The position numbers were made by a program, and so were the translations under genes. From the NCBI GenBank assembly GCA_040880805.1, contig JBBDHW010000048.1, positions 24,649-86,356 on the forward strand: a stretch of 61,708 nt of DNA, read 5' to 3'. Origin of the DNA: Acidimicrobiia bacterium. Its GTDB lineage: Bacteria; Actinomycetota; Acidimicrobiia; IMCC26256; DASPTH01. Shown one piece after another: positions 15,281-45,945 of this stretch; position 1 is the first letter of the stretch; each line of letters opens with the position of its first letter. Below the pieces are notes generated by a model. It did no database searches and was not told the origin of the DNA. It saw nothing but the letters and a program-made list of their open reading frames with translations.

Positions 15281-15709
15281 CTAACGCCGCTCGAGTATGA
15301 CGACGGGGATCTCGCGTTCCGTTCTGGACTGGTAGGTGTCGTAGCTCGGCCAGACCTCGGTCATGGTGGCCCACAGGCGCGCTTTCTCCTCGGGCGTGGC
15401 CGTGCGTGCGGTCGCCGGGAACCGGTCGCCGAGCACCTGTACGTGCACCTCGGGGTTGGCCGACAGGTTGCGGTACCACTGCGGGTGCCTCGGCGCACCG
15501 CCCACCGACCCCACGATCAGGTACGTGTCACCGTCCTGGCCGTAGATCAACGCGTGCTTGCGCGTCTCACCGGACTTGCTCGCCTTCGTGGTGAGCACGA
15601 GGCACGGCGCGCCGTTCCAGATGTGACCCTCGGCGCCGTCGGTCTCTTCGTAGCGGGCCACGTGGGCGTCGCCGAACAGGCTGAGATCGAGCGGTTGTCG
15701 TTGGGTCAT
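15281..15709 (-). CDS. Ddn-type nitroreductase family (deazaflavin-dependent) protein
   Basis: A 142-residue split-barrel protein of the actinobacterial Ddn/DUF385 family, which binds F420 and reduces quinones or nitro compounds. Markers are CLVLTTKASKSGETRKHALIY at residues about 36-56, with the Arg/Lys cluster used for the F420 tail, then GGAPRHPQWYRNLSANPEVHVQ at about 70-91. The start at ATG 15709 is preceded 7 bases upstream by TACCGT, suggesting a leaderless mRNA. The gene ends 3 bases from the stop of the convergent ligase. F420 use is inferred from the family. Confidence 0.9.
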   Translation of the reverse strand: MTQRQPLDLSLFGDAHVARYEETDGAEGHIWNGAPCLVLTTKASKSGETRKHALIYGQDGDTYLIVGSVGGAPRHPQWYRNLSANPEVHVQVLGDRFPATARTATPEEKARLWATMTEVWPSYDTYQSRTEREIPVVILERR

Positions 15710-15728
15710 GCCGCATACGGTATGCGCC
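15710..15728. promoter_or_regulatory. Palindromic divergent promoter, both sides leaderless
   Basis: A perfect inverted repeat CGCATAC-G-GTATGCG occupies 15712-15726. Its halves are also -10 boxes. On the plus strand TACGGT (15716-15721) stands 7 bases before GTG 15729; on the minus strand TACCGT (15722-15717) stands 7 bases before ATG 15709. The symmetry predicts that only one gene at a time can be initiated, or that a dimeric regulator binds the palindrome. Confidence 0.5.
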
Positions 15729-17330
15729 GTGCCGGAGACGAGGACGGCCGAATCGATGACAGGTGGAGCCGCGCTCGCGCGCCAACTGCGCGCGCAGGGC
15801 GTGGAGGTGATCTTCGGCCTCCCGGGAGATCAGCTCATGGCCGCGCTCGACGCGCTCGTCGACGTGCCCGAGATCCGCTACATCGTCACGCGCCACGAGC
15901 AGGCCACCACCTATATGGCCGACGGGTACGCGCGTGCGGGAGGCAAGCCCGGCGTCGCCATGGTGGTGCCGGGTGTCGGCGTGTACAACGCGGCGGCGGG
16001 TCTCGCTACCGCGTACGCGTGCTCCTCTCCGGTGTGCCTGATCGCCGGGCAGGTCAACCGCGACGGCATCGGACGCGATCTCGGCCTGCTCCACGACGTC
16101 CACGACCAACTCGACCTCGTCCGCCCGATCACCAAGTGGGCCCGCCGGGTACTTGACCCCGCGGAGATCCCTGGCGCAATACGAGACGGGTTCCACGCGA
16201 TGACGAGCGGTCGCAAGCGGCCCGTCGAGATCGAGATCCCGCCCGAGACGCTCGCCGAGAAGACCGACGTCGAGCTGCTCGAGCCATTGCCGGCGGACGT
16301 CCCGGCGTTCGACGCCGACGCCGTCGAACGGGCGGCATCACTCCTGGCGGGCGCGTCCTTCCCGCTCATCGTGGCGGGTGGGGGAGTGGTCCTCGGTGAC
16401 GCGACCGACCAGCTCCTGGTGGTGGCAGAGCTCCTCCAGGCCCCGGTGATCACGACACGTGAAGGCAAGGGCGCGATCGACGACCGCCACGCGCTGTCCG
16501 TCGGCACGATGTGGGTGAACCCGCGCATGCGGCCGGTGATCGACGCCGCCGATGTCGTGCTCGCCGTGGGCACCCGGTTCCAGGGCTTGAACCTTGCGCC
16601 GCACCAGCAGTTGGTGCACGTCGACGTCGATCCCGACCAGATCGGGCGCAACCGGGCCGCCGACGTCGCAGTGGCGGGAGACGCGCGCACTGCGCTCGCG
16701 GCGCTGGCCGAGCTGCTGGCGCCGTGTCCGTCGCGCGTCAACGAGATCCGAGCGATGCGCGCGACCTCGGACGCGCAGTTGCGGGAGGTCGGTCCGCAGG
16801 CGGCGATGGTCGAGGCGTTGCGCGCGGGCGTGCCCGACGACGGCATCCTCGTGTGCGATACCACCACAGTCGCCTACATGTGCCACATGTACTACCCCGT
16901 GTACGAACCGCGTACCTACCTCTCCACGTCGTACATGGGCACGCTGGGCTTCGGCTATCCAGCTGCGCTCGGCGCCAAGGTCGCCCGTCCCGAGCGGGCG
17001 GTGGTCACCGTCGTCGGCGACGGCGGGTTCCTCTTCGCGTCGAACGAGCTCGCGACCGCGGTGCAGCACGGTATCCACACCGTCACCGTGGTGTTCGACG
17101 ACGGCGCGTACGGCAACTCGAACCGCGACCAGCGCGAGAAGTACGGCGGTCGTGAGCTCGGCACCCTGTTGCAGAACCCCGACTGGGTGATGCTGGCGCA
17201 CGCGTTCGGCGCCGAGGGCGTCGTCGTCGACGATGTCGAGAAGCTCCCCGCGGCGATCCGCGACGCGACCGAAGTTGATGCTTCCACCGTCATCGCGGTC
17301 CCCATGGACCGCCTCCCCTCGCCCTTCTGA
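15729..17330 (+). CDS. Thiamine-diphosphate-dependent enzyme (acetolactate synthase/decarboxylase-like)
   Basis: A protein of about 533 residues with the three-domain pattern of the POX/ALS family. The N-terminal pyrimidine-binding domain carries the catalytic glutamate in RHEQAT near residue 57. A middle domain follows, then a C-terminal pyrophosphate domain with GDGGFLFASNELATA and the following NSNRDQ, which form the usual GDG-x(25)-N metal and ThDP site. The family includes acetolactate synthase, benzoylformate decarboxylase and oxalyl-CoA decarboxylase. No regulatory subunit gene is next to it, which argues against a biosynthetic synthase. I prefer GTG 15729 from the promoter spacing; ATG 15756 is an alternative with a weak ribosome site, and ATG 15708 would overlap the divergent gene. 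Confidence 0.85.
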   Translation: MPETRTAESMTGGAALARQLRAQGVEVIFGLPGDQLMAALDALVDVPEIRYIVTRHEQATTYMADGYARAGGKPGVAMVVPGVGVYNAAAGLATAYACSSPVCLIAGQVNRDGIGRDLGLLHDVHDQLDLVRPITKWARRVLDPAEIPGAIRDGFHAMTSGRKRPVEIEIPPETLAEKTDVELLEPLPADVPAFDADAVERAASLLAGASFPLIVAGGGVVLGDATDQLLVVAELLQAPVITTREGKGAIDDRHALSVGTMWVNPRMRPVIDAADVVLAVGTRFQGLNLAPHQQLVHVDVDPDQIGRNRAADVAVAGDARTALAALAELLAPCPSRVNEIRAMRATSDAQLREVGPQAAMVEALRAGVPDDGILVCDTTTVAYMCHMYYPVYEPRTYLSTSYMGTLGFGYPAALGAKVARPERAVVTVVGDGGFLFASNELATAVQHGIHTVTVVFDDGAYGNSNRDQREKYGGRELGTLLQNPDWVMLAHAFGAEGVVVDDVEKLPAAIRDATEVDASTVIAVPMDRLPSPF

Positions 17331-17331
17331 C

Positions 17332-18492
17332 TCAGGGGTTGGGTTCTCTCGGTAATCCCAGACCCAACTGGCCGATAGTGGTCCGTTGGATCTCGTTGGC
17401 GCCGACGCTGAGCGTGGGGTGGAGGCGCTCGACGGCCTCGTAGGCGAACCAGCTCGCCAATGGTTCGTCGCCGAACCAGCCCGGCTCGAGCACGGAGCCC
17501 GGGCCGAGCAGCGCGTTGCCGACACGCGCGATGCGCTGCAGGAGCTCGGTGGCCCACACCTTGCTCATGGCGGCTTCCACCGCCGGCGCCCGACCGGCGT
17601 CCTGCAACGTGAGTACCCGCTCCGCGAACCGCAGTCCGATGAACAGCCGCGTGGCAAGGTCGGCGAGCGCATCACGAGCGAGCCGGTCGGAAGTCCCCCG
17701 GAACGCATCGACCAGCGCGTACACGTTCCGGCTCGCCCAACCGAGCCAGGCCATGCCCGACCGCTCGCTGAGGAGCGCCGCGCCCAACTGTCGCCATCCG
17801 TTGTCGCGCGCACCCAGGAGCGCGTCGCCCCCGACGCGTGCGCCGTCGAAGCGAATCGTGCCGAGCGTCCAGCCGTTCGCAGTGGGGACGCGCTCGACCG
17901 TCACGCCCGGCGTGCTCATGTCGACGAGGAACATCGACAAGCCGCGCGATCCTTCTGACGACGGGTCGGTACGCGCAATCGTGCAGCACCAATCGGCCTT
18001 GTGCGCGGCGGTCACGAGTACCTTCTCGCCGTCGAGCACGAACCCGCCCCTGTCGTCGTCGGTCGCGGTCGTGGCGATGTTCGCGAGATCGGACCCGGCA
18101 CCAGCCTCGGTGTACGCGATGCACGCGATGCACGTCCCCGCGGTTGCCGCGGGCAGGAACCGATCGCGCTGAGCCTCGGAACCGAACGCGAGCACCGTCG
18201 GAGCCACGAGCACGGCGACGGTGTCGATCAGTGGGGCGTCGTGGTAGGCGGCCTCGAAGCTCACCACCGCCTGCCAGCTGCGGGGCCGGCCGCCGCCGCC
18301 GTACTCGTGAGGCAGGCTCACACCGACGAGGCCGGCCGCGCCCGCGCGTGCGAGCAACGATCGTTCGAAGGATTCGTCCCAACCGGTGAGGTCGAACCGG
18401 TCGCGACGACCGGCGATCTGATCCGCACGCATCTCGGCGCGCAGGAACGTGCGAACCTCCTCGCGGAACGTCGCGAGGTCGTCGGGAAGCAA
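17332..18492 (-). CDS. Acyl-CoA dehydrogenase
   Basis: A 386-residue flavoprotein of the acyl-CoA dehydrogenase family. The middle domain has CIAYTEAGAGSDLANIATTA near residues 123-142 and KVLVTAAHKADW; the C-terminal part ends SVGANEIQRTTIGQLGLGLP. As in the dehydrogenase at 11523, the position of the usual catalytic glutamate is not an acid (the Val-Gly before AN). Its start is a TTG at 18492, with a possible -10 box TAACAT about 21 bases upstream. No better in-frame start is visible. It is convergent with the ThDP enzyme, with a single base between their stops, and divergent from the amidohydrolase at 18625. Confidence 0.88.
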   Translation of the reverse strand: MLPDDLATFREEVRTFLRAEMRADQIAGRRDRFDLTGWDESFERSLLARAGAAGLVGVSLPHEYGGGGRPRSWQAVVSFEAAYHDAPLIDTVAVLVAPTVLAFGSEAQRDRFLPAATAGTCIACIAYTEAGAGSDLANIATTATDDDRGGFVLDGEKVLVTAAHKADWCCTIARTDPSSEGSRGLSMFLVDMSTPGVTVERVPTANGWTLGTIRFDGARVGGDALLGARDNGWRQLGAALLSERSGMAWLGWASRNVYALVDAFRGTSDRLARDALADLATRLFIGLRFAERVLTLQDAGRAPAVEAAMSKVWATELLQRIARVGNALLGPGSVLEPGWFGDEPLASWFAYEAVERLHPTLSVGANEIQRTTIGQLGLGLPREPNP

Positions 18493-18624
18493 CAGATCGG
18501 GAAGCGTGCGCGCATGTTACGGACGCCGCGTCCTTGCTCGCGCTGATGCTCGGGCCTACGATCCAAACGCTGTTCCATCGGCGGCGCTGAAATGTCGTCG
18601 CCTCGAGAATCGAGGGAAGCTCCG

Positions 18625-19851
18625 ATGACGAAGCTCGCGGGCGATCGCTACATCGTGATCTCGTCGGACGGCCACGCCGGCGCGCAGATGGAGGAGTACC
18701 GCGACTACCTCGAGAAGGAGTGGCTCGACGAGTTCGACGACTGGGCGAAGTCGTACGTGAACCCGTTCACCGACCTGCGCGGCGTGACCGCGTACCGCAA
18801 CTGGGATTCGGCGAAGCGGCTCGAGGAGCTCGAGGACGACGGGGTGGTCGGGGAGGTGCTCTTCCCGAACACCATCCCGCCGTTCTTCCCGTCGGCCAGC
18901 CTGGTCACGCGCCAACCCAAGACGCGCGACGACTACGAACGCCGCTGGGCCGGGCTCAAGGCGCACAACCGCTGGCTCGCCGACTTCTCCGCCCGCACCC
19001 CAGGTCGCCGCGCGGGCATGGCGCAGATCTTCCTGAACGACATCGACGACGCGGTCGCGGAGATCCGCGCCGCGCGCGAGAACGGGCTCTTCGGCGGCAT
19101 CCTGTTGCCGGGCGTTCCCCCCGACTCCGGCCTCGCACCGCTCATCGCACCCGACTACGAACCGATCTGGGCCGTGTGCGAGGAGCTCGACATGCCGGTC
19201 AACAACCACACCGGCCAGGCCGGGCCCGACTTCGGCGACTACGAGGCGTCGATGGCGCTGTTCATGATCGAGCTCGGGTGGTTCTCGCACCGCGTGTTCT
19301 GGCACATGGTCTTCGGTGGTGTCTTCGCCCGGCACCCCCGCCTGAAGCTGGTGCTCACGGAGCAGTCGGCGGGATGGGTACCAAGCGTGCTCGCGATGCT
19401 CGACCACCAGTACGAGCGGTTCAAGACGCCGGGTGCGGCCGAAGCGCACTTCGGCGGCGAGCTCGCGAGGAAGATGGACCTGTCGCCCAGCGAGTACTGG
19501 GCGCGCAACTGCTATTCGGGCGCGAGCTTCTTCCGCCCGAACGAGGCGGAGCTGCGCTACGAGATCGGCGTCGACAAGATCATGTGGGGCCAGGACTACC
19601 CGCACGTCGAAGGCACCTACCCGTACACCACCGAAGCGCTGCGCAACACCTTCGCCGGCATCGACACCGACGAGGTCGCGGCGATGGTCGGCGGCAACGC
19701 GGCCGAGGTGTACGACTTCGACCTCGACGCGCTCGCGACGGTCGCGGCACGAGTGGGTCCCACCGTCGAGGAGGTCGCGGTCCCGCTCGACCACATTCCC
19801 GAGGACAGCGTGTCGATCGCGTTCGCCGGTGAGGCGGTGAAGCCGTGGTAG
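18625..19851 (+). CDS. Amidohydrolase 2 (PF04909) family metal-dependent hydrolase
   Basis: A 408-residue TIM-barrel protein of the ACMSD-like amidohydrolase family. Metal-site elements are DGHAG at residues 14-18, NNHTGQAG in the middle and WGQDYPHVEGTYP near residue 320 with the conserved Asp. Members decarboxylate or hydrolyse C-C or C-N bonds in ring cleavage and related pathways. The ATG at 18625 follows GAGGGAAGCTCCG, so it is preferred to the ATG at 18592. A candidate -10 box TACGAT lies at 18557-18562. It overlaps the next amidohydrolase by 7 bases; the two proteins are clearly paralogous. Confidence 0.88.
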   Translation: MTKLAGDRYIVISSDGHAGAQMEEYRDYLEKEWLDEFDDWAKSYVNPFTDLRGVTAYRNWDSAKRLEELEDDGVVGEVLFPNTIPPFFPSASLVTRQPKTRDDYERRWAGLKAHNRWLADFSARTPGRRAGMAQIFLNDIDDAVAEIRAARENGLFGGILLPGVPPDSGLAPLIAPDYEPIWAVCEELDMPVNNHTGQAGPDFGDYEASMALFMIELGWFSHRVFWHMVFGGVFARHPRLKLVLTEQSAGWVPSVLAMLDHQYERFKTPGAAEAHFGGELARKMDLSPSEYWARNCYSGASFFRPNEAELRYEIGVDKIMWGQDYPHVEGTYPYTTEALRNTFAGIDTDEVAAMVGGNAAEVYDFDLDALATVAARVGPTVEEVAVPLDHIPEDSVSIAFAGEAVKPW

Positions 19852-21119
19852 ATCGCTATCTCGTCATCTCGTCCGACACGCACGCCGGCCTCCCCGATGC
19901 GGAGTACGAGCACTACCTCGATCCCGAGTACCGCGACGCGTTCCGCGACGACATGAACCAACGCCATGACATGCGTGCCCGCATGAACGCGATGCGCGAG
20001 AGCGAGAACGAGTTCGTGAAGGACTGGTACGAGCAGAACGACGAAGGCCTGCAGGGCGGATGGGACGCGGCGCGCCGCGACAAGGAGCTCGACGCCGACG
20101 GTGTCGTCGGCGAGATCATCTTTCCCGACGCCGACGCGGTGCGCGGCGGCGCGTCGGCTCCGTTCGGCGCGGGCTTGGGGTCGAGCGGCGAGTTCGACGG
20201 CGACCTGCTGATGGCCGGGGCGCGGGCGCACAACCGCTGGCTCGCGGAGTTGTGCAGCGACAGTCCCGACCGGCGCTGTGGGCTGGCGATCGTGCCGATC
20301 CTGCACGACATCGACCATGCCGTCGCAGAGATCCGCCGCGCGCGTGACTCCGGTCTCCGAGGCATTCTGATCCCCGCGATGTGGCGGCCGTTCGAGCCCT
20401 ACAACCACCCGCGGTACGAGCCGATCTGGGCCGTGTGCGAGGAGCTCGACATGGTCGTGCACACGCACACCGGTCCTGCGCCACGCGACGAGATCGGCGC
20501 CGACCTCGGGATCTACACGAACGAGACGATCTTCTGGACGATGCGCCCGATGTGGTTCCTGCTCTGGTCGGGCGTGTTCGAGCGGTATCCGCGGTTGAAG
20601 TTCGCGGTGACCGAGGGCGGATGCTGGTGGGCGGCCGATCTCCTCTGGAAGTCCGACACGAGCTATCTCCGGGAGCACGCCACCAAGAAGCTCGGCAACA
20701 TCGCGCCGAAGCTCACGATGCTGCCGAGCGAGTACTTCGATCGCAACTGCTTCATCGGATCATCGAACACGCGGCGGCGCGAGATCGCGCGGCGTTTCGA
20801 GATCGGTGTGGGCAACATCATGTGGGGGAACGACTTCCCGCACCCCGAAGGCACGTGGCCGCACACTCGCACGTGGTTGCGGGAGACCTTCTGGGACTGC
20901 CCGGTCGACGACACGCGGCGGATCCTCGGGCTCAACGCGGCCGGGGTCTACAGCTTCGACGTCGAGAAACTCGCGCCGCTCGCCGATCGCGTCGGTCCCA
21001 CGCCGGACGACCTCGGCCAGACCGCCGACGTCGACCTCAGCAAGTGGGACGATCTCGAGGCCGCCGGGCGCCCGTGGCTCACGGGCAAGGAAGCGCTCCC
21101 GGCAACCGACCGCGCGTGA
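19845..21119 (+). CDS. Amidohydrolase 2 (PF04909) family metal-dependent hydrolase, paralogue
   Basis: A 424-residue homologue of the gene upstream. It shows DTHAGLP at residues 10-16, HTHTGPAP in the middle and WGNDFPHPEGTWP near residue 330. It resembles the protein at 48472-49743 more closely than its neighbour: both share an extra segment DADAVRGG-like before HNRWLAELC and the FPHPEGTWP motif. The GTG start lies inside the end of the previous gene, and the stop overlaps the P450 start (GTGA), so the three genes form one operon. The reaction is unknown; two paralogues in tandem could act on successive intermediates or form a mixed oligomer. Confidence 0.88.
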   Translation: MVDRYLVISSDTHAGLPDAEYEHYLDPEYRDAFRDDMNQRHDMRARMNAMRESENEFVKDWYEQNDEGLQGGWDAARRDKELDADGVVGEIIFPDADAVRGGASAPFGAGLGSSGEFDGDLLMAGARAHNRWLAELCSDSPDRRCGLAIVPILHDIDHAVAEIRRARDSGLRGILIPAMWRPFEPYNHPRYEPIWAVCEELDMVVHTHTGPAPRDEIGADLGIYTNETIFWTMRPMWFLLWSGVFERYPRLKFAVTEGGCWWAADLLWKSDTSYLREHATKKLGNIAPKLTMLPSEYFDRNCFIGSSNTRRREIARRFEIGVGNIMWGNDFPHPEGTWPHTRTWLRETFWDCPVDDTRRILGLNAAGVYSFDVEKLAPLADRVGPTPDDLGQTADVDLSKWDDLEAAGRPWLTGKEALPATDRA

Positions 21120-22393
21120 GCCAGGCACCGGAGGTGAAGGTGGGCGCGTCGGAGGCCGACGCGATCCGCAACCGCATGTTCGGCGCCGGGCTCGTCGACG
21201 ATCCGTATCCCACGTATCACCGCCTCATCACCGAAGGCCCCGTGCTTCCCGGTGGCATCAACGACCAGTTCGCGGAGATGGGCGAGTTCCGTATGCCGGG
21301 AGCGCAGGGTACGGCGATCTCGGTGCACAGCCACGAGGCGTGCGTGCACGCGCTGCGACGGGCGGACGTCTACTCGTCGTCCTCGTACGACCAAGGGCTG
21401 CGCTTCGTCATCGGCCACAGCATCATCGGCATGGACGAGCCCGAGCATCGGCGCATGCGCTTGCTGCTGCAGCCCGCGTTCACGAAGAGCGAGATGGAGC
21501 GCTGGAAGACGGAGATCATCCTGCCGATCGTCGACGAGCACCTCGACCGGATCGTCGGACGCGGACGCGCCGACCTCTACGAGGAGATCGCGCCCGCGGT
21601 GCCGATCCACACGATCTCGGCTGCCCTCGGTCTGCCTACCGCGGACCGGCGCCAGTTCTTCGAATGGGCGGTCGGCATGACGTCGATGGGAGCCGGCCCC
21701 GAGGCGCGGCTCGACGCGTCGAAGGCCGTCGGCGAATACGTGGCGCCGCTGATCGCGGCGCGGCGCGAGCAGCCCGGCGATGACTTGATCACGATCCTCG
21801 TCGAGGCGACGGTCCCGCCTGACGAGGACCTGGGCGACCTCGAGCCGCGCCCGCTCGACGACGACGAGATCACGACGTTCGTGCGCCTCCTCATCATCGC
21901 CGGCGCCGGCACCACCTACCGCGCCTACGGCAACCTCATGTTCTTCCTGCTCACCCACCCCGAGCAGTTCGCCGCGGTGCGCGACGACCGGGCATTGGTG
22001 CCCGCGGCGATCGAGGAGTCGTTGCGGATCGAGCAGCCGCTCGCGCAGATCCTGCGCGTCGCGACCGAGGAGTCGGATCTGCGCGGCGTGCCGATCCCCG
22101 CCGGCTGCTCGGTGCAACTCAACGTGGGCGCGGCCAACCACGACGCCGCCCAGTGGCAGAACCCCGAGGAGTTCGACATCTTCCGCGAGCGGCCCGACCG
22201 CCACCTCAGCTTCGGGTTCGGGATCCACCGCTGCCTCGGCATCCACCTCGCGCGCGCCGAGCTCGACGTGCTGCTCAACCGGACCATCGACCGCCTCCCG
22301 AACCTCCGCCTCGATCCGCAGGGCGCGGGCGACGTGCACATGACCGGCCTCGGCTTCCGCATGGTCACCGCGCTGCCGGTGCTCTTCGACTAG
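21116..22393 (+). CDS. Cytochrome P450
   Basis: A 425-residue soluble bacterial P450. It has the I-helix AGAGTTYRAYGNL motif, with the oxygen-activating Thr pair, and the ExxR motif in EESLRIEQP. The heme loop FGFGIHRCLGIHLARAEL has the cysteine ligand at about residue 373. It needs ferredoxin and reductase partners, which are not encoded in this window. The GTG at 21116 overlaps the preceding stop by four bases, and the frame upstream is antisense-like. The stop TAG shares the palindrome CTAG (22390-22393) with the convergent IclR gene. It probably hydroxylates the substrate handled by the amidohydrolases. Confidence 0.92.
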   Translation: MSQAPEVKVGASEADAIRNRMFGAGLVDDPYPTYHRLITEGPVLPGGINDQFAEMGEFRMPGAQGTAISVHSHEACVHALRRADVYSSSSYDQGLRFVIGHSIIGMDEPEHRRMRLLLQPAFTKSEMERWKTEIILPIVDEHLDRIVGRGRADLYEEIAPAVPIHTISAALGLPTADRRQFFEWAVGMTSMGAGPEARLDASKAVGEYVAPLIAARREQPGDDLITILVEATVPPDEDLGDLEPRPLDDDEITTFVRLLIIAGAGTTYRAYGNLMFFLLTHPEQFAAVRDDRALVPAAIEESLRIEQPLAQILRVATEESDLRGVPIPAGCSVQLNVGAANHDAAQWQNPEEFDIFRERPDRHLSFGFGIHRCLGIHLARAELDVLLNRTIDRLPNLRLDPQGAGDVHMTGLGFRMVTALPVLFD

Positions 22394-23398: not shown

Positions 23399-23608
23399 AT
23401 GCTCGACTGGCTGATCGGTCGTCCCCGCGAGTTCCGCGACGCAGCGCCGCGCATCGTCCGCGACGAGCGCGGCGAGGCGTGGCTGTTCGAGGGCGAGTCC
23501 ACATGGCCGGATTCCATGATCCTGCGCGGCAGCGCGGAGCGTGTGTACCGATTCACACCGGCTCCGCGCCCGAACGGCGAGGGTGCGGGGGTCGACGTCG
23601 TCGCGTGA
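23399..23608 (+). pseudogene. Short amidohydrolase-like N-terminal fragment (possible gene remnant)
   Basis: A 69-residue reading frame with a plausible ribosome site (AGGGG) before the ATG at 23399. Residues 1-36 (ending AWLFEGES) resemble the segment that follows the metal-binding motif in some PF04909 amidohydrolases: an Arg-Pro-x-x-Phe-Arg-Asp-Ala-Ala-Pro-Arg-Ile-Val core. The preceding DxH metal site and the whole barrel are missing, and the last third is low complexity. It may be a remnant, or a small gene of its own. The resemblance is from memory of the family and is weak evidence. Confidence 0.3.
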
Positions 23609-23657
23609 CAGGAACATGCTAAAACCGACCGACCGAACCACAACAGGGGGAACGACC

Positions 23658-25007
23658 ATGGTCCATCGACTCCGCGGCCGGCGGGTTCTCGCCGCGCTCC
23701 TCGTACTCGCACTCTCGGCAACGCTTGCCGCGACCGTCTCCGGTGGAGCCGCGTTGGCGAGGGTCAAGCAGGCTACGGGGGTCGACACTGCCACGAACAC
23801 GGTGAAGATTGCCGTGCTCGGCCTCAACCTGCAGGCGCTCGTCGACGCCGGTCTGGTGCCCGACCTCGGGAAGCCCGCCGACCAGTTCATGCAGCTGCAG
23901 AACGAGATCAACGCCGGTAGCAAGGCGGGCAAGTACAAGCTCGAGGTCGCCACCAAGCTGCTGCCGTCGCAGCCGAAGCCCGAGGACTACCAGGCGGCGT
24001 GCTTGTGGGCCACCGAGGAGCAGAAGGCGTTCGCGGTGGTGCTCGCGTCGGTGAGTGCCGAAAGCCTCGCGCGCTGTATCGCGATCGACCACAAGACGCC
24101 CCTGATCGGCAACGTCGGATTCACTGCCCAGCTCTACAAGGACGCCAAGGGGTTCGTCCTGACCGACGGGAACACCGGCATGTCGATCGACCGCCAGATG
24201 CGCGCGTGGGCGGAGGTGAGCGCGGCGCGTGGGCTGCTCAAGAAGCAGAAGATCGGCATCGTCGCGGGCGACGGCAACGCGGAGGCGTTGAAGACGATCA
24301 ACGGCACGCTCGTGCCGACCCTGAAGAAGCTCGGCTACAAGGTCACCGACAACATCGTGCTCCCGTGCGCGACCAGCCCCACGACCTGCTCGCAGCAGGA
24401 CGTCGCCGTCCAGCGCTTGAAGAACGACGGCGTGACGTTCGTGTTCAACGGCGCCGATGTTCTGGCGGGTGCGACGCTCGTATCCGAGGCGGAGAAGATC
24501 GGGTACGCGCCGACGTGGGCGGCCAATCGCAACAACACGACGGACACGGTGGCGAAGTTCTTCAAGTCGGTTGCCGACGCGTGGGAGGGCGCGAACGGCG
24601 TGAGCGTCACGTGGCCCGACAGCGACTTCTCGCAGGAGACGAAGGACTGCAACGCCAACGCGACGAAGGGCGGGATCTTCAGCTACCAGCCGGCGCAGAA
24701 TGCGTACGCCGCGTACGGCCAGTACTGCATCATGATGAACCTGATCGCGCAGGGCATCACGGGTGTCTCCGGCGACCTCACCCAGGCACGGTTCCTCAAG
24801 TCGCTGCTCGCGATCGGCACCATCCCGAGCAACTCGGGACCGGCCGGAACCTGGTCCGCGGGCAAGTACGACGCCGGTAACCACGTCTACGCCTCGAAGT
24901 ACTCGAAGAGCGGGAACGACGGCGATGGGGGATTCCTGCCGGTCGGCGGCGCTGCCAAGTCGGTGAAGGTCGCGGTGGCGACTTCGAAGTCCAGCAGTAC
25001 AAAGTAA
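23658..25007 (+). CDS. ABC-type substrate-binding protein (LivK-like) of the fused transporter
   Basis: A 449-residue secreted binding protein. The signal peptide has the basic start VHRLRGRR, a hydrophobic core at residues 10-27 and likely cleavage after ALA near residue 34. There is no lipobox. The mature part has the type I periplasmic-binding layout, with KIAVLGLNLQALVDAG, the hinge region QKIGIVAGDGNAE and late VTWPDSDF. The start ATG 23658 follows AGGGGGAACGACC. Four bases separate it from the MFS-ATPase gene, which in turn overlaps the permease fusion, so it is the first gene of the transporter operon. Several cysteines could form disulfides outside the cell. The ligand is unknown. Confidence 0.88.
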   Translation: MVHRLRGRRVLAALLVLALSATLAATVSGGAALARVKQATGVDTATNTVKIAVLGLNLQALVDAGLVPDLGKPADQFMQLQNEINAGSKAGKYKLEVATKLLPSQPKPEDYQAACLWATEEQKAFAVVLASVSAESLARCIAIDHKTPLIGNVGFTAQLYKDAKGFVLTDGNTGMSIDRQMRAWAEVSAARGLLKKQKIGIVAGDGNAEALKTINGTLVPTLKKLGYKVTDNIVLPCATSPTTCSQQDVAVQRLKNDGVTFVFNGADVLAGATLVSEAEKIGYAPTWAANRNNTTDTVAKFFKSVADAWEGANGVSVTWPDSDFSQETKDCNANATKGGIFSYQPAQNAYAAYGQYCIMMNLIAQGITGVSGDLTQARFLKSLLAIGTIPSNSGPAGTWSAGKYDAGNHVYASKYSKSGNDGDGGFLPVGGAAKSVKVAVATSKSSSTK

Positions 25008-25011
25008 GGGG

Positions 25012-27237
25012 ATGACCGAGGACCTCTCGGACACGCAAGAGAGCGCAGCTCCTGAACCCGCGGATTCGGCGGCTGCGCTCTCGGCGCGCTTGCTCGAAGA
25101 AGAGGCGCTCCGCGAGCAGCGGACTGCGGCGATGGTCGCAGAGCTTGCCGACGAGGAGATGCCGGGGGTCGGCCTCGACGCGATGAGCCTGCGCCGGGGG
25201 CTCGAGATCGGCGGCCTCTCGATGGTCGTCGTGCTCGGTCTCGGGCAGTTCATGGAGTTCGTCGACCGGTCGGGGTTCAGCGTCCTCGCGCCCGACATCC
25301 AGAAGACGCTCGGTGTGAGCGACGCCGTGATCGCGGCGATCGGCGGCGCCTTCGGCATCCTGTTCCTCGCCGGCTCGATCCCGCTGAGCTCGATCGCCGA
25401 CCGTCGCTCGCGGACGAAGCTGGCCGCGATCTCGCTCGGCGCGTGGTCGATCGTGGTGGCGCTCACCGCGTTCGTCCAGAACGCGTTTCAACTCTTCATC
25501 GCGCGGCTCGCGAGTGGTCTCGGCCAGTCGTACCAGCTGCCGACGCACAGCCCGTTGCTCATCGACACGTACCCGATCGAGGCGCGCGGGCGGGTCTTCG
25601 CCCTGAGCAACATCATCCAGAACTGCGGGAACGGGCTCGCGCCGATGATCGCCGGTGCGATCGCCGCGATCGCCGGCGGCGACGAAGGCTGGCGGTGGGT
25701 GTTCATCGTCACCGCGATCGCCACGATCCCGATCGTCCTCGCCACGCTGCGGCTCGAGGAGCCCCGGCGCGGACGTCACGAGATGCGGGCGGTGCTGGGC
25801 GAGGAGGTCGAAGCCGACGCCGACGAGCTGCCGATCTCGCTGAGCGTCGCGTTCGAGCGGCTCAACAAGATCAAGACGTTCCACTTCTTCCTCCTGGGGA
25901 TGGCGTCGCTCGGCTTCGCGCTGTTCACCGTTCCGCTGTTCCTCAACCTGATCTTCGAGCATCGTTTCGGGCTCGGTGGCTTCGAACGCGGGCTTGCCAC
26001 GTCGGCGACGATCGTGCCGGGGCTCATCGCGGTGGCGTTCGTCGGGAAGCGCAGCGACTCGCTGTTCCGCCGTAGCCCGCCGAGGTGCTTGGTGTTCATC
26101 GGCGCGCTGATCGCGTCGTTCGGCATCTTCATCGCGGTCGGCGTCTTCATGCCGAGCCTCGTGCTACTCCTGATCCTCGTCGGGATCGGCGACGCGATGG
26201 CGCAATCGGCGTTCGCGATCGTGATCGCGCCGATCTCGGCGATCATCCCCTACCGATTGCGTTCCCGCGGCGTCGCCATGATCGGCCTCTACGTGTTCCT
26301 GTTCGGTGCGTTCTTCGGCGCGGTGATCACCGGCGTCCTGGCCGACGCGATCGGCCGACGCGGCGCCGTCGCGGTGGTCGTGGTCCCGGCGGCGTTGATC
26401 GGTGGCGCGCTGATCGCGTACGGCGCGCGCTACGTCCGCCAGGACATGGCACTCGTCGTGGAGGAGCTCGAGGAGGAACGTGACGAGCAGGCTCGTCTGC
26501 GAGAGCACGGCGCCGACTCGCCGGTCATTCAGGTGCGGAACCTCGATTTCTCGTACGGCAAGGTGCAGGTGCTGTTCGACGTGTCGCTCGACGTGTACAA
26601 GGGCGAGACGCTCGCGCTCCTCGGCACCAACGGCGCGGGAAAGTCCACGCTGCTGCGCGTCGTCAGCGGGTTGGGCGTGCCGCAACGCGGTGTCGTCCGG
26701 TTCAACGGGCGCACGGTCACCTACGCGGACGCCGAGCTCCGGGTGAAGATCGGCATCGTCCAGCTCATCGGCGGCACCGCGATCTTCCCGCCGCTCACCG
26801 TTGAGGAGAACCTCCGGATGGGCGGGTTCCTGTACTCGGGCAAGGATCTCGAGCAGCGCGTCGACCGAGTGTGCGAGCTCCTCCCGGTGGTCCGGGAGCG
26901 GATGCGCTCGACCGCGGGCGACCTGTCGGGTGGCGAGCAACAGATGGTCGCGCTCGCGATGACGCTGCTCCACGAGCCCGAGGTGTTGATCATCGACGAG
27001 CTCTCGCTCGGGCTCGCGCCACTCGTGGTGCAGCGGCTCCTCGAAGTGGTCCGCGAGCTTCAAGCTCGCGGCATGACGATGATCATCGTCGAGCAATCGC
27101 TCAACGTCGCCCTCTCGATCGCCGACCGCGCCGTCTTCATGGAGAAGGGTGAGGTGAAATTCGAGGGCGCGGCGAGCGAGCTGCTCGAACGCGACGACCT
27201 CGTGCGGGCCGTGTTCCTCTCGAAGGGCGAGGCATGA
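25012..27237 (+). CDS. Fusion of an MFS-type membrane protein and a LivF-type ABC ATPase
   Basis: A 741-residue protein with two parts. Residues about 60-490 carry around twelve hydrophobic segments in MFS style, with the loop 2-3 region SSIADRRSRTKL and EGWRWVF in the middle. Residues 504-741 are an ABC ATPase: Walker A GTNGAGKST at about 538-546, signature LSGGEQQMV near 638-646, Walker B VLIIDE at about 658-663, then IIVEQSLNVALSIADR. The VEQ in place of the usual H-loop is typical of LivF. ABC ATPases of this group power Liv-type importers. An MFS module joined to one is unexpected. The ATPase probably pairs with the LivG domain of the next protein, while the MFS part may add regulation or a second route. 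Confidence 0.92.
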   Translation: MTEDLSDTQESAAPEPADSAAALSARLLEEEALREQRTAAMVAELADEEMPGVGLDAMSLRRGLEIGGLSMVVVLGLGQFMEFVDRSGFSVLAPDIQKTLGVSDAVIAAIGGAFGILFLAGSIPLSSIADRRSRTKLAAISLGAWSIVVALTAFVQNAFQLFIARLASGLGQSYQLPTHSPLLIDTYPIEARGRVFALSNIIQNCGNGLAPMIAGAIAAIAGGDEGWRWVFIVTAIATIPIVLATLRLEEPRRGRHEMRAVLGEEVEADADELPISLSVAFERLNKIKTFHFFLLGMASLGFALFTVPLFLNLIFEHRFGLGGFERGLATSATIVPGLIAVAFVGKRSDSLFRRSPPRCLVFIGALIASFGIFIAVGVFMPSLVLLLILVGIGDAMAQSAFAIVIAPISAIIPYRLRSRGVAMIGLYVFLFGAFFGAVITGVLADAIGRRGAVAVVVVPAALIGGALIAYGARYVRQDMALVVEELEEERDEQARLREHGADSPVIQVRNLDFSYGKVQVLFDVSLDVYKGETLALLGTNGAGKSTLLRVVSGLGVPQRGVVRFNGRTVTYADAELRVKIGIVQLIGGTAIFPPLTVEENLRMGGFLYSGKDLEQRVDRVCELLPVVRERMRSTAGDLSGGEQQMVALAMTLLHEPEVLIIDELSLGLAPLVVQRLLEVVRELQARGMTMIIVEQSLNVALSIADRAVFMEKGEVKFEGAASELLERDDLVRAVFLSKGEA

Positions 27238-30065
27238 TCTCTTCCGTCGTCACGTTGGCGGTCGACTTCCCACGTCAGTCGATCTTCTCCGGGGTGATGC
27301 AGGGCCTCACCTACGGTGTGATCGCCATCGGGTTGATCCTGATCTACCGGTCCACGCGGGTCATCAACTTCGCGATCGTCGAGATGGGCGCCTTCGCCGC
27401 CGCGTTGCTCGCGCGGCTCGTCATCAACTGGGGCGTGGACTACTGGGTCGCGGTCCCTGCGTGCGTCATCGTCGGCGGACTCCTGGGTGCCGGGATCGAG
27501 CTCGTCGTCGTCCGCCGGCTCTTCCGCTCACCGCGCGTGGTGCTGTTCGTCGCCACGATCGGCGTTGCCCAGCTCCTGCTCTTCTTCCAGTTCGTGTTGC
27601 CCAAGTTCGACACCTACGCCTCGTTCCCCACCGCGTTCTCCTCTTCGTGGGAGTTCGAGGGTCTCTTCATCCGGAGCGAGCACGTGCTCGTGCTCGTGAT
27701 CGTGCCAGTCCTCGCGATCGTGTTGACCGTGTTCCTGAACCACACGAAGTACGGGACGGCGATCCGCGCGTCGGCAGCCAACCCGGACGCGGCGCGCCTC
27801 TCCTCGATCAGTCCCAAGAAGATGTCGACGCTCGTGTGGACGATAGCGGGGTTGCTCGCGGCGCTCGGCATGATCCTGACGATCCCGCTGACGAGCTCGA
27901 CGGCCACGGAGACGATCACGTTGGGTCCCGGCGTGTTGCTGCGCGCGATCGTCGCCGCGCTGATCGGCGGTATGCGGTCGATGCCGCGTGCGGTGGTCGG
28001 TGGCGTCGCCATCGGCATCACCGAGGCGCTGCTCTTCTACAACTACCCGAGCCAGGTCGGCCTGCTCGACGGGGTGCTGTTCATCGCGGTGCTTGTAATC
28101 CTGCTGGTGATGGGGGGGCGCGATCGCGATACCGACCACGTGGACACCTGGTCGTTCTCGCCTCGTGTCCGCCCGGTGCCGGCGAACCTCCAGGGCGTCT
28201 GGCTCGTGCGGAACGTTCCCCGACTCGGCACCGCGCTCGCGTTCTTCGCGGCGGTGGTCTTCCCGTTCATCGTGACGCGACCGTCGCAACAGCTGCTGTT
28301 CAGCCGGGTGTTGATCTACGCGCTCGTCACGTTGTCGCTCACGGTGCTCACGGGATGGGCGGGTCAGCTCTCGCTCGGCCAGTTCGCGCTCGCGGGTATC
28401 GGGGCGTTCGGCACCGCCGCGCTCGTTCGCGAAGGTCTGAGCTTCGGCGTCTCCGTCCTGCTCGTCACCGTCATCGGCATGGTCGTCGCGCTTGTGATCG
28501 GAGCGCCCGCGTTGCGGCTCCGAGGCTTGTTCCTCGCCGTCGCCACACTGGCGTTCGCCGTCGCGACGTCGTCATGGCTGTTCCGGCGCCCGTTCTTGTT
28601 ACCCGACGGTCTGGCGGTCCAAGTGCATCGGGGCGACATCCTGGGCCTCGACCTCACCCCGCAACGCACCTACTACTTCCTCTGCCTACTGGTCTTGGCT
28701 GTCGGCGTGTTCTTCGTCGTCCAGATCCGCCGGAGCGGGGTCGGGCGCTCGTTCATCGCAGTGCGCGACAACGAGCAGTCTTCCGCTGCAGTCGCGCTCT
28801 CGCCGGTGCGGACGAAGCTCACCGCGTTCGTGATCGCCGGCGGTCTCGCCGCGCTCGCGGGCGGCCTCCTCGCCGGCCTGCTCGTGGACTTCGCCCCGCA
28901 ACGCTTCCTTGCTGCGGAGTCGTTATCGGTCGTGGCCATGGCGGTGATCGGCGGTCTCTCCTCGATCCCGGGCGCCGTGCTCGGCGCGCTCTGGGTGGTG
29001 GGCATCCCGTCGCTCTTCCCCGACAGTCCCGAGGTCGCGCTCTTCACCAGCGGCGCCGGCCTGCTCATCCTGCTGTTGTACTTCCCGGCCGGTCTCGTGC
29101 AGATCCTCTACAGCACCCGCGACCTGCTCTTCGGATGGTTGGGGCGAAAGCTGCCGCCGGCCGAGGAAGCGCCGCGCGTGGCGGTCACGACAGGAAAGCG
29201 CCTCACTCCGCGGCGCGTCGCCTCCGCCGACACCCCCGTCGCACTCGAAGTGCGGCAGCTCAGCGTGAAGTTCGGCAAGCGAGTGGTCGTGGATCACGTC
29301 GGCCTGCAGGTGCGCGCGCAGGAGACCGTCGGCCTCATCGGCGCCAACGGCGCGGGGAAGACGACCCTGATGAACGCGGTGGGAGGGTTCCTGCCGAGCG
29401 AGGGCACCGTTGTGCTCGAGGGCCGCGACGTGTCGCGCTCGAGCCCACCGCGGCGCGCCGCGCTCGGACTCGGGCGTTCTTTCCAGCACGCCCGGCTGTT
29501 CGCCGACCTCACCGTGCGGGAGACCATCGAGGTCGCGCTCGAGTCCGGCGCGCACGCCGGACCGATCGCCGTGGGGCTCGCGCTGCCGCGGGCGCGCAGG
29601 TTCGAACGGGCGAAACGATCGCAGGCCGAGGAGATCATCGCGTTCCTCGGCCTCGGTGGATACGCCGACCGATTCATCAATGAGCTGTCGACCGGGACGC
29701 GCCGCATCGTGGAACTCGCGTGTCTGGTGGCAGTGGAGCCGCGTGTGCTCTGCCTCGACGAGCCGACCGCGGGCATCGCCCAGCGCGAGACCGAGGCATT
29801 CGCACCGCTGATCATGCGCGTGCGCGAGGAGCTCAACGCGAGCCTGTTGGTCATCGAGCACGACATGCCGCTCGTGATGGGTATCAGCGATCGCATCTAC
29901 TGCCTCGAAGCCGGTCGCGTGATCAGCGAGGGAACTCCCGAATGGGTGCGCCGGGATCAATTGGTGATCGCGTCGTACCTCGGCACCGACGAACAGGCGA
30001 TCGCGCGCAGCGGTGTGGCAGCACCGACCTCCGCTAGCGAACTTGCGTCAACAGACGGCGTATAG
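27234..30065 (+). CDS. LivH-LivM-LivG fusion: two Liv-type permease domains plus ATPase
   Basis: A 943-residue protein joining three components of a branched-chain amino acid-type importer. Residues about 15-290 are LivH-like (YGVIAIGLILIYRSTRVINF). Residues about 325-625 are LivM-like (TGWAGQLSLGQFALAGIGAF). Residues about 668-905 are a LivG ATPase: Walker A GANGAGKTT near 703-711, LSTGTRRIVELA near 818-829 in place of the canonical LSGGQ, and Walker B VLCLDEPTAG near 839-848. The protein supplies both permeases and one ATPase. The second ATPase is fused to the MFS protein just upstream, whose stop it overlaps by four bases. Liv-type fusions of permease and ATPase are known in actinobacteria; the full HMG order is less usual. 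Confidence 0.93.
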   Translation: MISSVVTLAVDFPRQSIFSGVMQGLTYGVIAIGLILIYRSTRVINFAIVEMGAFAAALLARLVINWGVDYWVAVPACVIVGGLLGAGIELVVVRRLFRSPRVVLFVATIGVAQLLLFFQFVLPKFDTYASFPTAFSSSWEFEGLFIRSEHVLVLVIVPVLAIVLTVFLNHTKYGTAIRASAANPDAARLSSISPKKMSTLVWTIAGLLAALGMILTIPLTSSTATETITLGPGVLLRAIVAALIGGMRSMPRAVVGGVAIGITEALLFYNYPSQVGLLDGVLFIAVLVILLVMGGRDRDTDHVDTWSFSPRVRPVPANLQGVWLVRNVPRLGTALAFFAAVVFPFIVTRPSQQLLFSRVLIYALVTLSLTVLTGWAGQLSLGQFALAGIGAFGTAALVREGLSFGVSVLLVTVIGMVVALVIGAPALRLRGLFLAVATLAFAVATSSWLFRRPFLLPDGLAVQVHRGDILGLDLTPQRTYYFLCLLVLAVGVFFVVQIRRSGVGRSFIAVRDNEQSSAAVALSPVRTKLTAFVIAGGLAALAGGLLAGLLVDFAPQRFLAAESLSVVAMAVIGGLSSIPGAVLGALWVVGIPSLFPDSPEVALFTSGAGLLILLLYFPAGLVQILYSTRDLLFGWLGRKLPPAEEAPRVAVTTGKRLTPRRVASADTPVALEVRQLSVKFGKRVVVDHVGLQVRAQETVGLIGANGAGKTTLMNAVGGFLPSEGTVVLEGRDVSRSSPPRRAALGLGRSFQHARLFADLTVRETIEVALESGAHAGPIAVGLALPRARRFERAKRSQAEEIIAFLGLGGYADRFINELSTGTRRIVELACLVAVEPRVLCLDEPTAGIAQRETEAFAPLIMRVREELNASLLVIEHDMPLVMGISDRIYCLEAGRVISEGTPEWVRRDQLVIASYLGTDEQAIARSGVAAPTSASELASTDGV

Positions 30066-34663: not shown

Positions 34664-34705
34664 GGGTTGAGCCTGGTATCGAACGTATGCTCGTCATGTC
34701 AACCC
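34664..34705. promoter_or_regulatory. Inverted repeat flanking a -10-like box
   Basis: GGGTTGA (34664-34670) and TCAACCC (34699-34705) are perfect 7-bp inverted arms around TATGCT at 34686-34691, a fair -10 box for the Rieske gene that starts at 34769. The layout would suit an operator over the promoter or a weak terminator after the FAD oxidase gene. No regulator is assigned. Confidence 0.35.
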
Positions 34706-34768
34706 AGTCATCGTTTGGCGGTAGTTTCGTCGGCTCATCGAAAGGTGCTGCGAGCAGGTGACGACGGC

Positions 34769-36055
34769 ATGGACGCGCTGATCCCCAAGGAGCGGTACCT
34801 GTCGCGCGAGTTCCTCGACCTCGAGTACGAGCGGATGTGGTCGCGTGTCTGGCAAGTCGCCTGCCGCGAAGAGGAGATCCCCGACGTCGGCGATTACGTC
34901 GAGTACACGATCGGCGACGAATCCGTGATCGTCGTGCGGAGCGAGCTTGACACCATCACTGCTCTCCCGAATGCGTGCCTCCACCGCGGCACTCGCCTCG
35001 CCCAGGGTGAAGGCCACGTAGCCGACGGGTCGTTCCGGTGCCCGTTCCACGGCTGGCGGTACACGCTCGACGGTCGGGTCGTTGAAGTCGTCGACGCAGA
35101 TGATTTCGACGCGATCCCGGATGAGCTCGCGCTGTGCCCGGTCCGGGCCGAGCGTTGGGGCGGTTTCGTCTTCGTCAACCTCGACCCTGACGCCGAGCCG
35201 CTGCTCGACTTCTTGGACCCCGTTCCCAAACTCCTCGGCCCGTATCACTTCGACCAGATGAAGTTTCGCTCGTACCTCACCACGGTGATACCGGCGAACT
35301 GGAAGGCGGTCGTCGACGCGTTCAACGAGGCGTACCACGTGCAGACCGGACACGAGCAGGTGCTGCCGTGGACCGACGACGTGAGCATCGTCTACGAGTC
35401 TCTCGGGAACCACGCGCACTACGGCCGGCTACCGGGCGCGCGCCGCACGCTGCAGCCGAGCCCGCGCCTCGGCCTCACCGAGGACCAGTTCGACGAGGGC
35501 GAGATTCTCGAGGGGATGGTCGCCAACCTCGGTGGCGCGTTCCTGCGCGACGAAACCGCGATCGTGGCCGAGCTCCGCGCCGCCGATCTCCCGCCCGGCG
35601 CGTTGCTCGGGGTCTTCCAGGGGCGGCGGATGGAGTTGTTGGCGTCGCGCGGCTTCGACGTCTCCGGTCTCGAGCCCGACCAGATGACGAGCGCCGACGA
35701 CATCTACTTGTTCCCCAACATCGTCGGACCCGTCTACCCGGGGAGCGCGATCCTGTTCCGGGTACGACCCGACGGGCACGACCCCGACCGGGCGATCATG
35801 GACACGTGGGTCCTCGCGTGGCCCGACCCCGAGCGTGAGTGGACGATGCCGACGCGGCACTGGTACGCCGACTGGCACGAACGCGACTGGGGCACGATCA
35901 CTACGCAGGACTACGAGAACCTCGGCCGCGTGCAGCGCGGGATGAAGTCGCGCGGGTTCGAGGGCCTCCGGCTCAACCCGCGCCAAGAGGCCAACCTGTT
36001 GCACATGCACCGTGTGCTCGATCGGTACCTCTCCACACCTCTGTTTCACGGGTGA
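34769..36055 (+). CDS. Rieske non-heme iron oxygenase, alpha-type subunit
   Basis: A 428-residue aromatic-ring-hydroxylating oxygenase. The Rieske cluster ligands are C70, H72, C91 and H94 (CLHRGTRL and CPFHGW). The mononuclear iron histidines are H190 and H195 in DAFNEAYHVQTGH, with the bridging Asp in the same motif. It catalyses oxygen insertion with electrons from a reductase, which is not encoded nearby. The ATG at 34769 is chosen since the family begins there; the frame from 34667 adds 34 unrelated residues. It overlaps the next gene by four bases. Aromatic or quaternary amine substrates are both possible. Confidence 0.9.
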   Translation: MDALIPKERYLSREFLDLEYERMWSRVWQVACREEEIPDVGDYVEYTIGDESVIVVRSELDTITALPNACLHRGTRLAQGEGHVADGSFRCPFHGWRYTLDGRVVEVVDADDFDAIPDELALCPVRAERWGGFVFVNLDPDAEPLLDFLDPVPKLLGPYHFDQMKFRSYLTTVIPANWKAVVDAFNEAYHVQTGHEQVLPWTDDVSIVYESLGNHAHYGRLPGARRTLQPSPRLGLTEDQFDEGEILEGMVANLGGAFLRDETAIVAELRAADLPPGALLGVFQGRRMELLASRGFDVSGLEPDQMTSADDIYLFPNIVGPVYPGSAILFRVRPDGHDPDRAIMDTWVLAWPDPEREWTMPTRHWYADWHERDWGTITTQDYENLGRVQRGMKSRGFEGLRLNPRQEANLLHMHRVLDRYLSTPLFHG

Positions 36056-44172: not shown

Positions 44173-45861
44173 CTAGAGATTCAGGTCTTGGCTCGCGGCG
44201 GGCACGATGTCGCTGGTACCGCTGCTGGGACAGCCGGTGCACACGTATTGCGGGAATTTCGGCTCCGACGCCGGGACCGTGTCGAAGCTCTGGACCGACT
44301 TCGACGCGTTGAACCACGCCTGCTTGCCCTTCGGGAAGTGACCGGCGACGTAGCGCTGTCCGTTGTTGAGGTACATGTAGTCGCCCTTGCCAACGCCTCC
44401 GATGTTGAAGTTGGCCTGACCGGTGATGTCGGGGTTCCACCACCCGAGCGCGGAGCCTCGTGGTGTGATCTGGCCCTCGGGCACCGTGACCGCTTCGAAC
44501 GTGGACATGCTCTTGCTGTAGTAGCCGCCGACCGCACTTCCCTGCGGCAGCGGCTTCTCGATTGCCGCCTTGTTCAGCTTCGGGCCTGCATAGTGGATGC
44601 GCGTGTAGAGCCCGCCGAGATCGGCGGCGGCGCCCTGCCAGCGCGTGCCCTGGTCGGTGCCCCAGAACCACTGGAAGGCCTGGCTCAGGACGTCGGGCTG
44701 TCCCTTCACGTAGGGGAGGAACCATACGAGTCCGAACGCGTGCGACCACACTTCCTGATCGAAGCTGCGCGCGAGGATGTCGAGGTCGTCGTACGGATAT
44801 GACGTGACGACGACCTCGGGGAACCAGTCCTGGTTGTTCATCGCCTTCGACGCCGTACCGGTCGCGGTGTTGTTCGAGAACATGACGAGCGTGGTGACGC
44901 CGGCGTCTTTCAACTTGGTGATCAGCGTGGGGAGCTGCTCGGCGACGTCACCTGCTGATCCTGCGTTCGCCACGCTCTCGTTCACCGGCACCGTGTACTC
45001 GGCCTTCGACGCGAGCTTCAGCCCGAACTTCTTGAGCTGCTGCTCGAAGAAGGCGATGTTGAAGTTGCTGGCGTAGAGCGCTCCGTACACGCGCGGCTTG
45101 CCCTTCAGATCACCGCCGGCGAACTCCGCCTTGCCGCCCTTCAGGTACCTGCCCATGATCTCGGCCGTGTTCAACCCGAACACCCGGGTGGCCTGCTTCG
45201 GGTCGGACGCGGGCTGCGGCGACACGTAGGGCACACCACCGTTGAGGACGGCCTGCTCGAACACGGGTCCGCCGCCCACTGCAGGCGTGCCGATGCGTGA
45301 GGCAGCGTCGATCACCGCGAAGGGCTTCATCGCGTTGACGGCGACCGCGTCCGCCCGCTGCGCAGTCTCGTCGGTACCGGTCGACTTCACGAACTTGAAT
45401 TCGACCTCGCGTCCCCACGTCTCGAAGACGTGCTTGTACATCTCGTTCTGGTCGATGAGCGCGTCGACCGCACCGTCGAGGTCGTTCTGACCCGTGGCCT
45501 GGTTCGTGTAAAGGCCCGAGCGGCTGCCTGCCTGTTCGGGGTTGAGCAGGTTCCACAGCACGACCAAGAGGATCTTGTCCTTGGTGACGCCCTGCGCAGT
45601 GGCCCCGCCGTTGTTGGCCCCGTCCTTCCACGCCTTGACGCAGAGCGGGGCGGAGTAAGTCTGGAATCGAACTCGCTTGACCGTCGGATCGCACTGGGGA
45701 TTCTTCAGCGCCTGGGCGCTGCCGACGCCGGGGTCGTTCTTGGCGAGCGAGCTCCCTGCTGCCGCGGTCCCCGTACCGAGGCCTGCCAGCGTCGCGCCAA
45801 CCAGCGCGCACAACACTGTCCCGATCGCGGGCCGAACCCGCGTGCCCTTCCGGCGACCCAT
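44173..45861 (-). CDS. ABC-type substrate-binding protein, long LivK-like, orphan
   Basis: A 562-residue secreted protein. The signal peptide is at residues 1 to about 36 (MGRRKGTRVRP, then a hydrophobic run to GTAAAG). The ATG at 45861 follows GGGGGGAAA. The mature chain has type I binding-protein features such as KILLVVLWNLLNPEQAG, VYGALYASNFNIAFFEQQL, VTTLVMFSNN, and several cysteines including CTGCPSS near the end. It is about 100 residues longer than the other two binding proteins here. No permease or ATPase gene is beside it, so it may deliver ligand to one of the fused transporters. The ligand is unknown. Confidence 0.85.
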   Translation of the reverse strand: MGRRKGTRVRPAIGTVLCALVGATLAGLGTGTAAAGSSLAKNDPGVGSAQALKNPQCDPTVKRVRFQTYSAPLCVKAWKDGANNGGATAQGVTKDKILLVVLWNLLNPEQAGSRSGLYTNQATGQNDLDGAVDALIDQNEMYKHVFETWGREVEFKFVKSTGTDETAQRADAVAVNAMKPFAVIDAASRIGTPAVGGGPVFEQAVLNGGVPYVSPQPASDPKQATRVFGLNTAEIMGRYLKGGKAEFAGGDLKGKPRVYGALYASNFNIAFFEQQLKKFGLKLASKAEYTVPVNESVANAGSAGDVAEQLPTLITKLKDAGVTTLVMFSNNTATGTASKAMNNQDWFPEVVVTSYPYDDLDILARSFDQEVWSHAFGLVWFLPYVKGQPDVLSQAFQWFWGTDQGTRWQGAAADLGGLYTRIHYAGPKLNKAAIEKPLPQGSAVGGYYSKSMSTFEAVTVPEGQITPRGSALGWWNPDITGQANFNIGGVGKGDYMYLNNGQRYVAGHFPKGKQAWFNASKSVQSFDTVPASEPKFPQYVCTGCPSSGTSDIVPAASQDLNL

Positions 45862-45945
45862 TTTCCCCCCTGTCACAGATTTCGATGCTCGCTCGGCATT
45901 GTGACCCATTGGGTGGGCCAAAGGCAACGCGCCCCCGGCTCGCCT

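Follow-up and report, generated by a model that had tools for sequence, protein, structure and literature searches.

An MFS domain fused to the LivF ATPase of a Liv-type ABC importer in Acidimicrobiia and other Actinomycetota

According to the TCDB 2021 update (PMC7778945), transporters of the MFS are driven by the proton motive force rather than by ATP. A gene of an Acidimicrobiia bacterium, in which an MFS domain and a LivF-type ABC ATPase share one reading frame, raises the question of whether an ABC ATPase here gates or drives the fold of a secondary carrier, or whether an MFS domain regulates an ABC importer, and makes this question testable. In the analysed stretch of DNA, which is 61,708 nucleotides long and is referred to here as the window, the gene (25012-27237, + strand) runs from ATG to TGA without an internal stop and encodes a protein of 741 residues. 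Its Spinster-like MFS domain with twelve TM helices (residues 69-473; 25216-26430, + strand) was delimited by Pfam, AlphaFold2 and a fold match. This domain is followed by a predicted stalk, i.e., a cytosolic extension of the TM12 helix (residues 474-497; 26431-26502, + strand) placed by AlphaFold2 and a near-constant spacing among relatives, and by the LivF ATPase domain (residues 506-741; 26527-27234, + strand), as delimited by Pfam, full-length matches, AlphaFold2 and the same spacing. The profile search proposed in an earlier note on this DNA found both MFS_1 (residues 76-405; 143 bits, E 1e-41) and ABC_tran (residues 522-663; 99 bits, E 4e-28) in the protein, each far over the Pfam cut-off. 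The top full-length matches of the ATPase half are of the UrtE and LivF type, and its Walker A (GTNGAGKS), LSGGEQQ and Walker B (DE) motifs are all intact. Open reading frame, Pfam matches and motifs thus confirm what the note had described, namely a single frame encoding a twelve-helix MFS region and then an intact ABC ATPase. The switch position of this LivF is occupied by Q (VEQ), which was considered as an odd catalytic residue and rejected as such, VEQ or IEQ being found in those MFS-free LivF proteins of the same genome whose switch is readable.

The first gene of the operon (23541-25007, + strand; likely start MVHRLRG near 23658) encodes a Liv-type (type I) solute-binding protein, and its stop codon (25005-25007) lies 4 bases before the ATG of the fusion. 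The stop of the fusion and the start of LivH share four nucleotides, ATGA (27234-27237), such that the short distance on one side and the overlap on the other, both reported previously, were found in the sequence. The gene that follows (27234-30065, + strand; 943 residues) is a LivH-LivM-LivG fusion comprising two permeases (two BPD_transp_2 domains) and the second ATPase, LivG, whose motifs are intact. Jointly, the three genes encode every part of a Liv importer and one extra, the MFS domain. The role proposed for the ATPase, namely to complete the Liv importer, is well supported, since the LivF and LivG motifs are intact, the binding protein is nearly always there and the two-gene order is kept. 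The system shares with Liv/HAAT-type ABC importers (LivKHMGF, TC 3.A.1.4) a type I binding protein, two BPD_transp_2 domains and intact LivG and LivF. Liv-type importers take up amino acids or similar compounds at the expense of ATP, and ATP-dependent import of a ligand supplied by the binding protein is the most likely function here. It differs from them in that LivF bears an N-terminal 12-TM MFS domain and in having its other subunits combined in one or two polypeptides; a LivF free of any TM domain, which is a usual rather than a strictly defining Liv feature, was not encountered in the complete relatives of either gene arrangement described below.

Using a profile built from the binding protein of the window, a Liv-type binding protein was found in the locus of 47 out of 49 well-flanked operons of the window type (arrangement A, see below), as compared to none of 20 random control regions from the same class. 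The window protein matches the profile of its own family with an E-value of 1e-99, Peripla_BP_6 was matched in six of seven aligned relatives, and the AlphaFold2 model yields fold matches to Leu/Ile/Val- and aromatic-acid-binding proteins. The predicted fold and the co-occurrence fit an importer, without naming its ligand. Weak matches of the same protein (23541-25007) to TAL-effector repeats, obtained with NCBIfam and with PDB sequences, concern a short stretch and were rejected as chance similarity; they could misdirect annotation. A farther member of the binding-protein family is encoded at window positions 44173-45927 (- strand; E 2e-33).

The fusion is widespread, being present in many Acidimicrobiia and in some other Actinomycetota. 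The survey suggested by the earlier note found it in ~120 distinct relatives, and the possibility that no other genome possesses it is thereby discarded. A scan of bacteria and archaea returned 75 strong matches to the MFS half, all of them from Actinomycetota, including Frankia, Pseudofrankia, Embleya, Yinghuangia and a Streptomyces; the complete matches among these are all fused to LivF, with the exception of L084, whose frame is interrupted. No match outside the Actinomycetota was returned by this two-pattern scan of one genome per species, which is not exhaustive. At a threshold of E <= 1e-20, a match to this MFS family was obtained in 126 of 395 sampled Acidimicrobiia genomes and in 26 of 396 genomes of the phylum sample, the fusion itself being confirmed on opened loci only. 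At such frequencies annotation is affected, as naming the protein by either half alone misnames it. A plasmid collection contained one full-length relative only, from Embleya, which is unannotated.

Two gene arrangements were distinguished. In arrangement A, that of the window, MFS-LivF is followed by LivH-LivM-LivG, while in arrangement B LivH-LivM is followed by an MFS-LivF-LivG chain of ~1000 residues. All complete A and B relatives examined carry the fusion, which is immediately followed by LivHMG or immediately preceded by LivHM. A split arrangement, with a separate MFS gene and LivF in tandem, was not observed among the loci checked. Five stand-alone MFS relatives (L179-L183) were also identified, and these are adjoined by neither LivF nor LivHMG.

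In a tree of the MFS halves, the A proteins, the B proteins and the five stand-alone proteins form one clade (SH-aLRT 99). The tree of the LivF halves exhibits the same A/B split and the same main sub-groups, apart from the ordinary LivF proteins of the same genome (SH-aLRT 99); both trees are the product of quick searches and contain some long branches. Between the two trees, path lengths are correlated (r 0.76), and the MFS half evolves ~1.9 times faster than LivF. Because the trees agree, the simplest history suggested by the sequences would be a single old fusion that was permuted afterwards and that occasionally lost either LivF, which gave rise to the stand-alone carriers, or its MFS domain. 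Two MFS-free LivH-M-F-G importers encoded by the same genome as the window (L013 and L014) have probably undergone the latter loss, given that the LivF tree places theirs within the B clade. That the MFS domain is missing from these two relatives and decayed in one sub-clade marks it as an accessory component, not an obligatory one.

When a profile of 17 MFS halves was compared with solved structures, the best match was HnSpns (6e8j, E 4e-21), followed by human SPNS1 (1e-20) and, among others, Spns2 and DgoT (PDB match E 3e-13; NCBIfam match 2A0114). Structure alignment (VIA) of the AlphaFold2 model gave its highest rank to human Spns1 (Z 39.6, 411 residues, 2.8 A), with Spns2 next. Other MFS folds rank close behind, and the domain, for which Spinster carriers appear to be the nearest kin in sequence and model, is therefore called Spinster-like and not a Spinster carrier. 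With Spinster carriers (HnSpns, Spns1 and Spns2; TC 2.A.1.49) it shares the 12-TM MFS fold, motif A and the best sequence and fold match. The TM1 Asp/Arg and TM4 Arg of that family are likewise present in the window protein as D85, R86 and R165, which align with D41, R42 and R122 of HnSpns and are variable among relatives. The fusions depart from the Spinster family by the lack of a TM4 glutamate (Q172 in the window), by extra acidic residues in TM1 and by being joined to an ATPase. Among the 44 members of the main A group, the motif A residues D130, R131 and R134 are 98-100% conserved, and in B they reach 95-100%; motif A is degraded in one A sub-clade (L012, L140, L142, L170 and kin).

How the two halves are joined bears on what they may do together. 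The AlphaFold2 model of the fusion (mean pLDDT 89, pTM 0.86) predicts an unbroken helix from residue 449 to 497, comprising TM12 and the stalk, and then a short loop leading to the first ATPase strand. The distance from the invariant D478 to G516 measures 38-40 residues in each of the 50 A proteins compared, and in 17 of 21 B proteins it measures 37-38. Since this spacing is near-constant in spite of different stalk sequences in A and B, sequences and model together argue for a junction of fixed geometry and not for a loose tether. With a short stalk that is modelled as a helix, the MFS domain would have to sit beside LivHM, and motion of LivF would reach TM12.

On these grounds, the reading that we favour, with moderate confidence, is that of a Liv-type importer to which an MFS domain has been added as a third unit, coupled to it through conformational changes. 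A ligand would be handed to LivHM by the binding protein and imported as LivF and LivG hydrolyse ATP. Given the location of LivF beneath LivHM, the Spinster-like domain, joined via TM12 and a helical stalk of ~24 residues to the N-terminus of LivF, would lie next to LivHM in the membrane, and motion would be transmitted from LivF to TM12 and vice versa. The MFS domain would thus be a substrate-responsive partner, i.e., a sensor, a gate or a second path for that ligand or for a related lipophilic one, with its cycle tied to the ATPase and not driven by the usual proton switch. Against such a coupled partner stand the degraded motif A of one sub-clade, the dispensability of the MFS domain in some systems, the presence of the five stand-alone relatives within the MFS clade, the extra TM1 acids at positions 82 and 83, which could assume proton coupling, and a weak enrichment of neighbouring genes.

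The main rival, which is less probable, posits that one chain contains two carriers. The MFS domain would be an independent, ion-coupled carrier with a rearranged charge network, merely co-expressed and co-localised with the importer by the fusion, and would either take up the same compound when this is abundant or export a product or lipid. The well-kept MFS core with its motif A and the existence of stand-alone relatives that lack LivF speak for it, and the residues implicated in coupling bear on it in both directions. In HnSpns, E129 acts as the proton master switch (PMC9440201). The corresponding position in the window protein is Q172, and a glutamate was found there in none of 119 fusions, among which K, Q, R and A prevail; the stand-alone proteins L179-L183 likewise lack it. 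The next-best profile match among transporters of known mechanism is to the DgoT/SLC17 proton-coupled organic anion carriers, and in DgoT the change E133Q abolishes active transport (PMC6532931). From the two published descriptions we infer that E133 of DgoT occupies the position of HnSpns E129, such that the fusions appear to lack its equivalent, the E129 column being devoid of Glu in an alignment that does not contain DgoT itself. The missing TM4 proton switch thus argues against a standard proton-driven carrier, and the second-carrier role put forward in the earlier note is disfavoured in this form.

Charged residues elsewhere in the domain leave more room for an independent carrier. An acid at position 85 and R165 tend to change together (both in 58 proteins, one only in 1 and 2, neither in 10), as would be expected for the Asp41:Arg122 pair of HnSpns. 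Most fusions furthermore possess an acid at position 83 that is absent from HnSpns and goes with K or R at position 172 (38/16/1/16), and these two residues may represent a charge-swapped form of the Glu129:Arg42 pair. After correction for kinship, every differing independent pair agrees, their number being too small for significance (median p 0.06-0.13). The extra TM1 acids 82 and 83 could, judging from the alignment, replace the lost glutamate and take over proton coupling. Nevertheless, about 12 of 71 diverse members are also without the TM1 acid, and mere co-localisation of two carriers needs no near-constant helical stalk.

A bolder form of coupling, considered rather doubtful, is an ATP-gated or ATP-driven MFS domain, in which the LivF/LivG cycle would move the MFS fold through the TM12-stalk helix, the proton-switch glutamate being correspondingly absent. 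If this were true, a fold run elsewhere by ion gradients would here be powered or gated by ATP. The KATP channel (SUR1-Kir6.2) may serve as an analogy only: there, too, an ABC protein is tied to a different transport protein, which it gates. In that case, however, the two are separate chains, a channel takes the place of the MFS domain and the partner is without common ancestry.

That the MFS domain might be only a membrane anchor or scaffold for LivF, engaged in neither transport nor sensing, is improbable. It would accommodate the persistence of the fusion where motif A is degraded, the faster evolution of the MFS half and the MFS-free relatives. Yet the main A group and B show hardly any variation in motif A or elsewhere in the core residues, and this conserved core, together with the stand-alone kin, argues against a pure anchor; LivF, moreover, normally needs nothing beyond LivHM to hold it. 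Of the roles previously offered for this domain, i.e., carrier, regulator or anchor, the pure anchor is thus disfavoured for most members.

An assembly or gene-calling artefact fusing two genes, in favour of which there is nothing beyond one copy broken by a 10-N gap, is refuted by the relatives and carries next to no weight, as is the frameshift or misassembly named earlier as a potential refutation, since the fused frame is open in ~120 distinct relatives from many genomes and, bar that gap, in five paralogues of the same genome, with near-constant MFS-ATPase spacing. This genome, 3.49 Mb in size, encodes five MFS-LivF proteins, each adjoining its own LivHMG chain. The second of these begins in the window with its MFS half (1-1416, - strand) and continues past the window edge into its LivF half, the 10-N scaffold gap being the sole interruption of this apparently split copy. 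An overlong frame on the opposite strand (493-2988, + strand) contains the Liv-type binding protein of that second operon. In the fifth MFS-LivF protein (L012, 7802-10054, - strand), a normal LivF is combined with a very divergent MFS domain, which scores 47 bits with Pfam and has lost motif A. The MFS-free importers L013 (9411-13367, - strand) and L014 (5468-9667, - strand) are encoded as single LivH-LivM-LivF-LivG chains, with frames of 1318 and 1399 residues, respectively.

No description of an MFS-LivF or MFS-ABC fusion was found in the open-access papers searched, in keeping with the earlier note, which took the architecture for a candidate undescribed one; protein databases may list MFS-LivF without comment. 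Both halves belong to known families and it is the combination that would be new, with something categorically new as a possibility. The locus is of interest in that it presents an MFS fold at a near-fixed distance from an ABC ATPase, in an old and widespread family, without the proton-coupling residue of its relatives.

The surroundings of the operon bear on the nature of the ligand. Catabolic genes on both sides of it (15708-22393 and 34667-36055) encode a TPP enzyme, an acyl-CoA dehydrogenase, two amidohydrolases (amidohydrolase_2), a cytochrome P450 and a Rieske ring-hydroxylating oxygenase, an assortment which suggests the breakdown of aromatic, terpenoid or steroid-like compounds. Genes for SDR, amidohydrolase_2, AMP-ligase, P450 and acyl-CoA dehydrogenase proteins are somewhat commoner near fusions than in control regions, the counts being small. 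Naming a substrate from the neighbours was rejected, as this enrichment is weak and the counts relative to control regions are too small. Taken together with the Spinster kinship, the neighbouring genes provide a hint, and only a hint, that the ligand may be a lipophilic acid.
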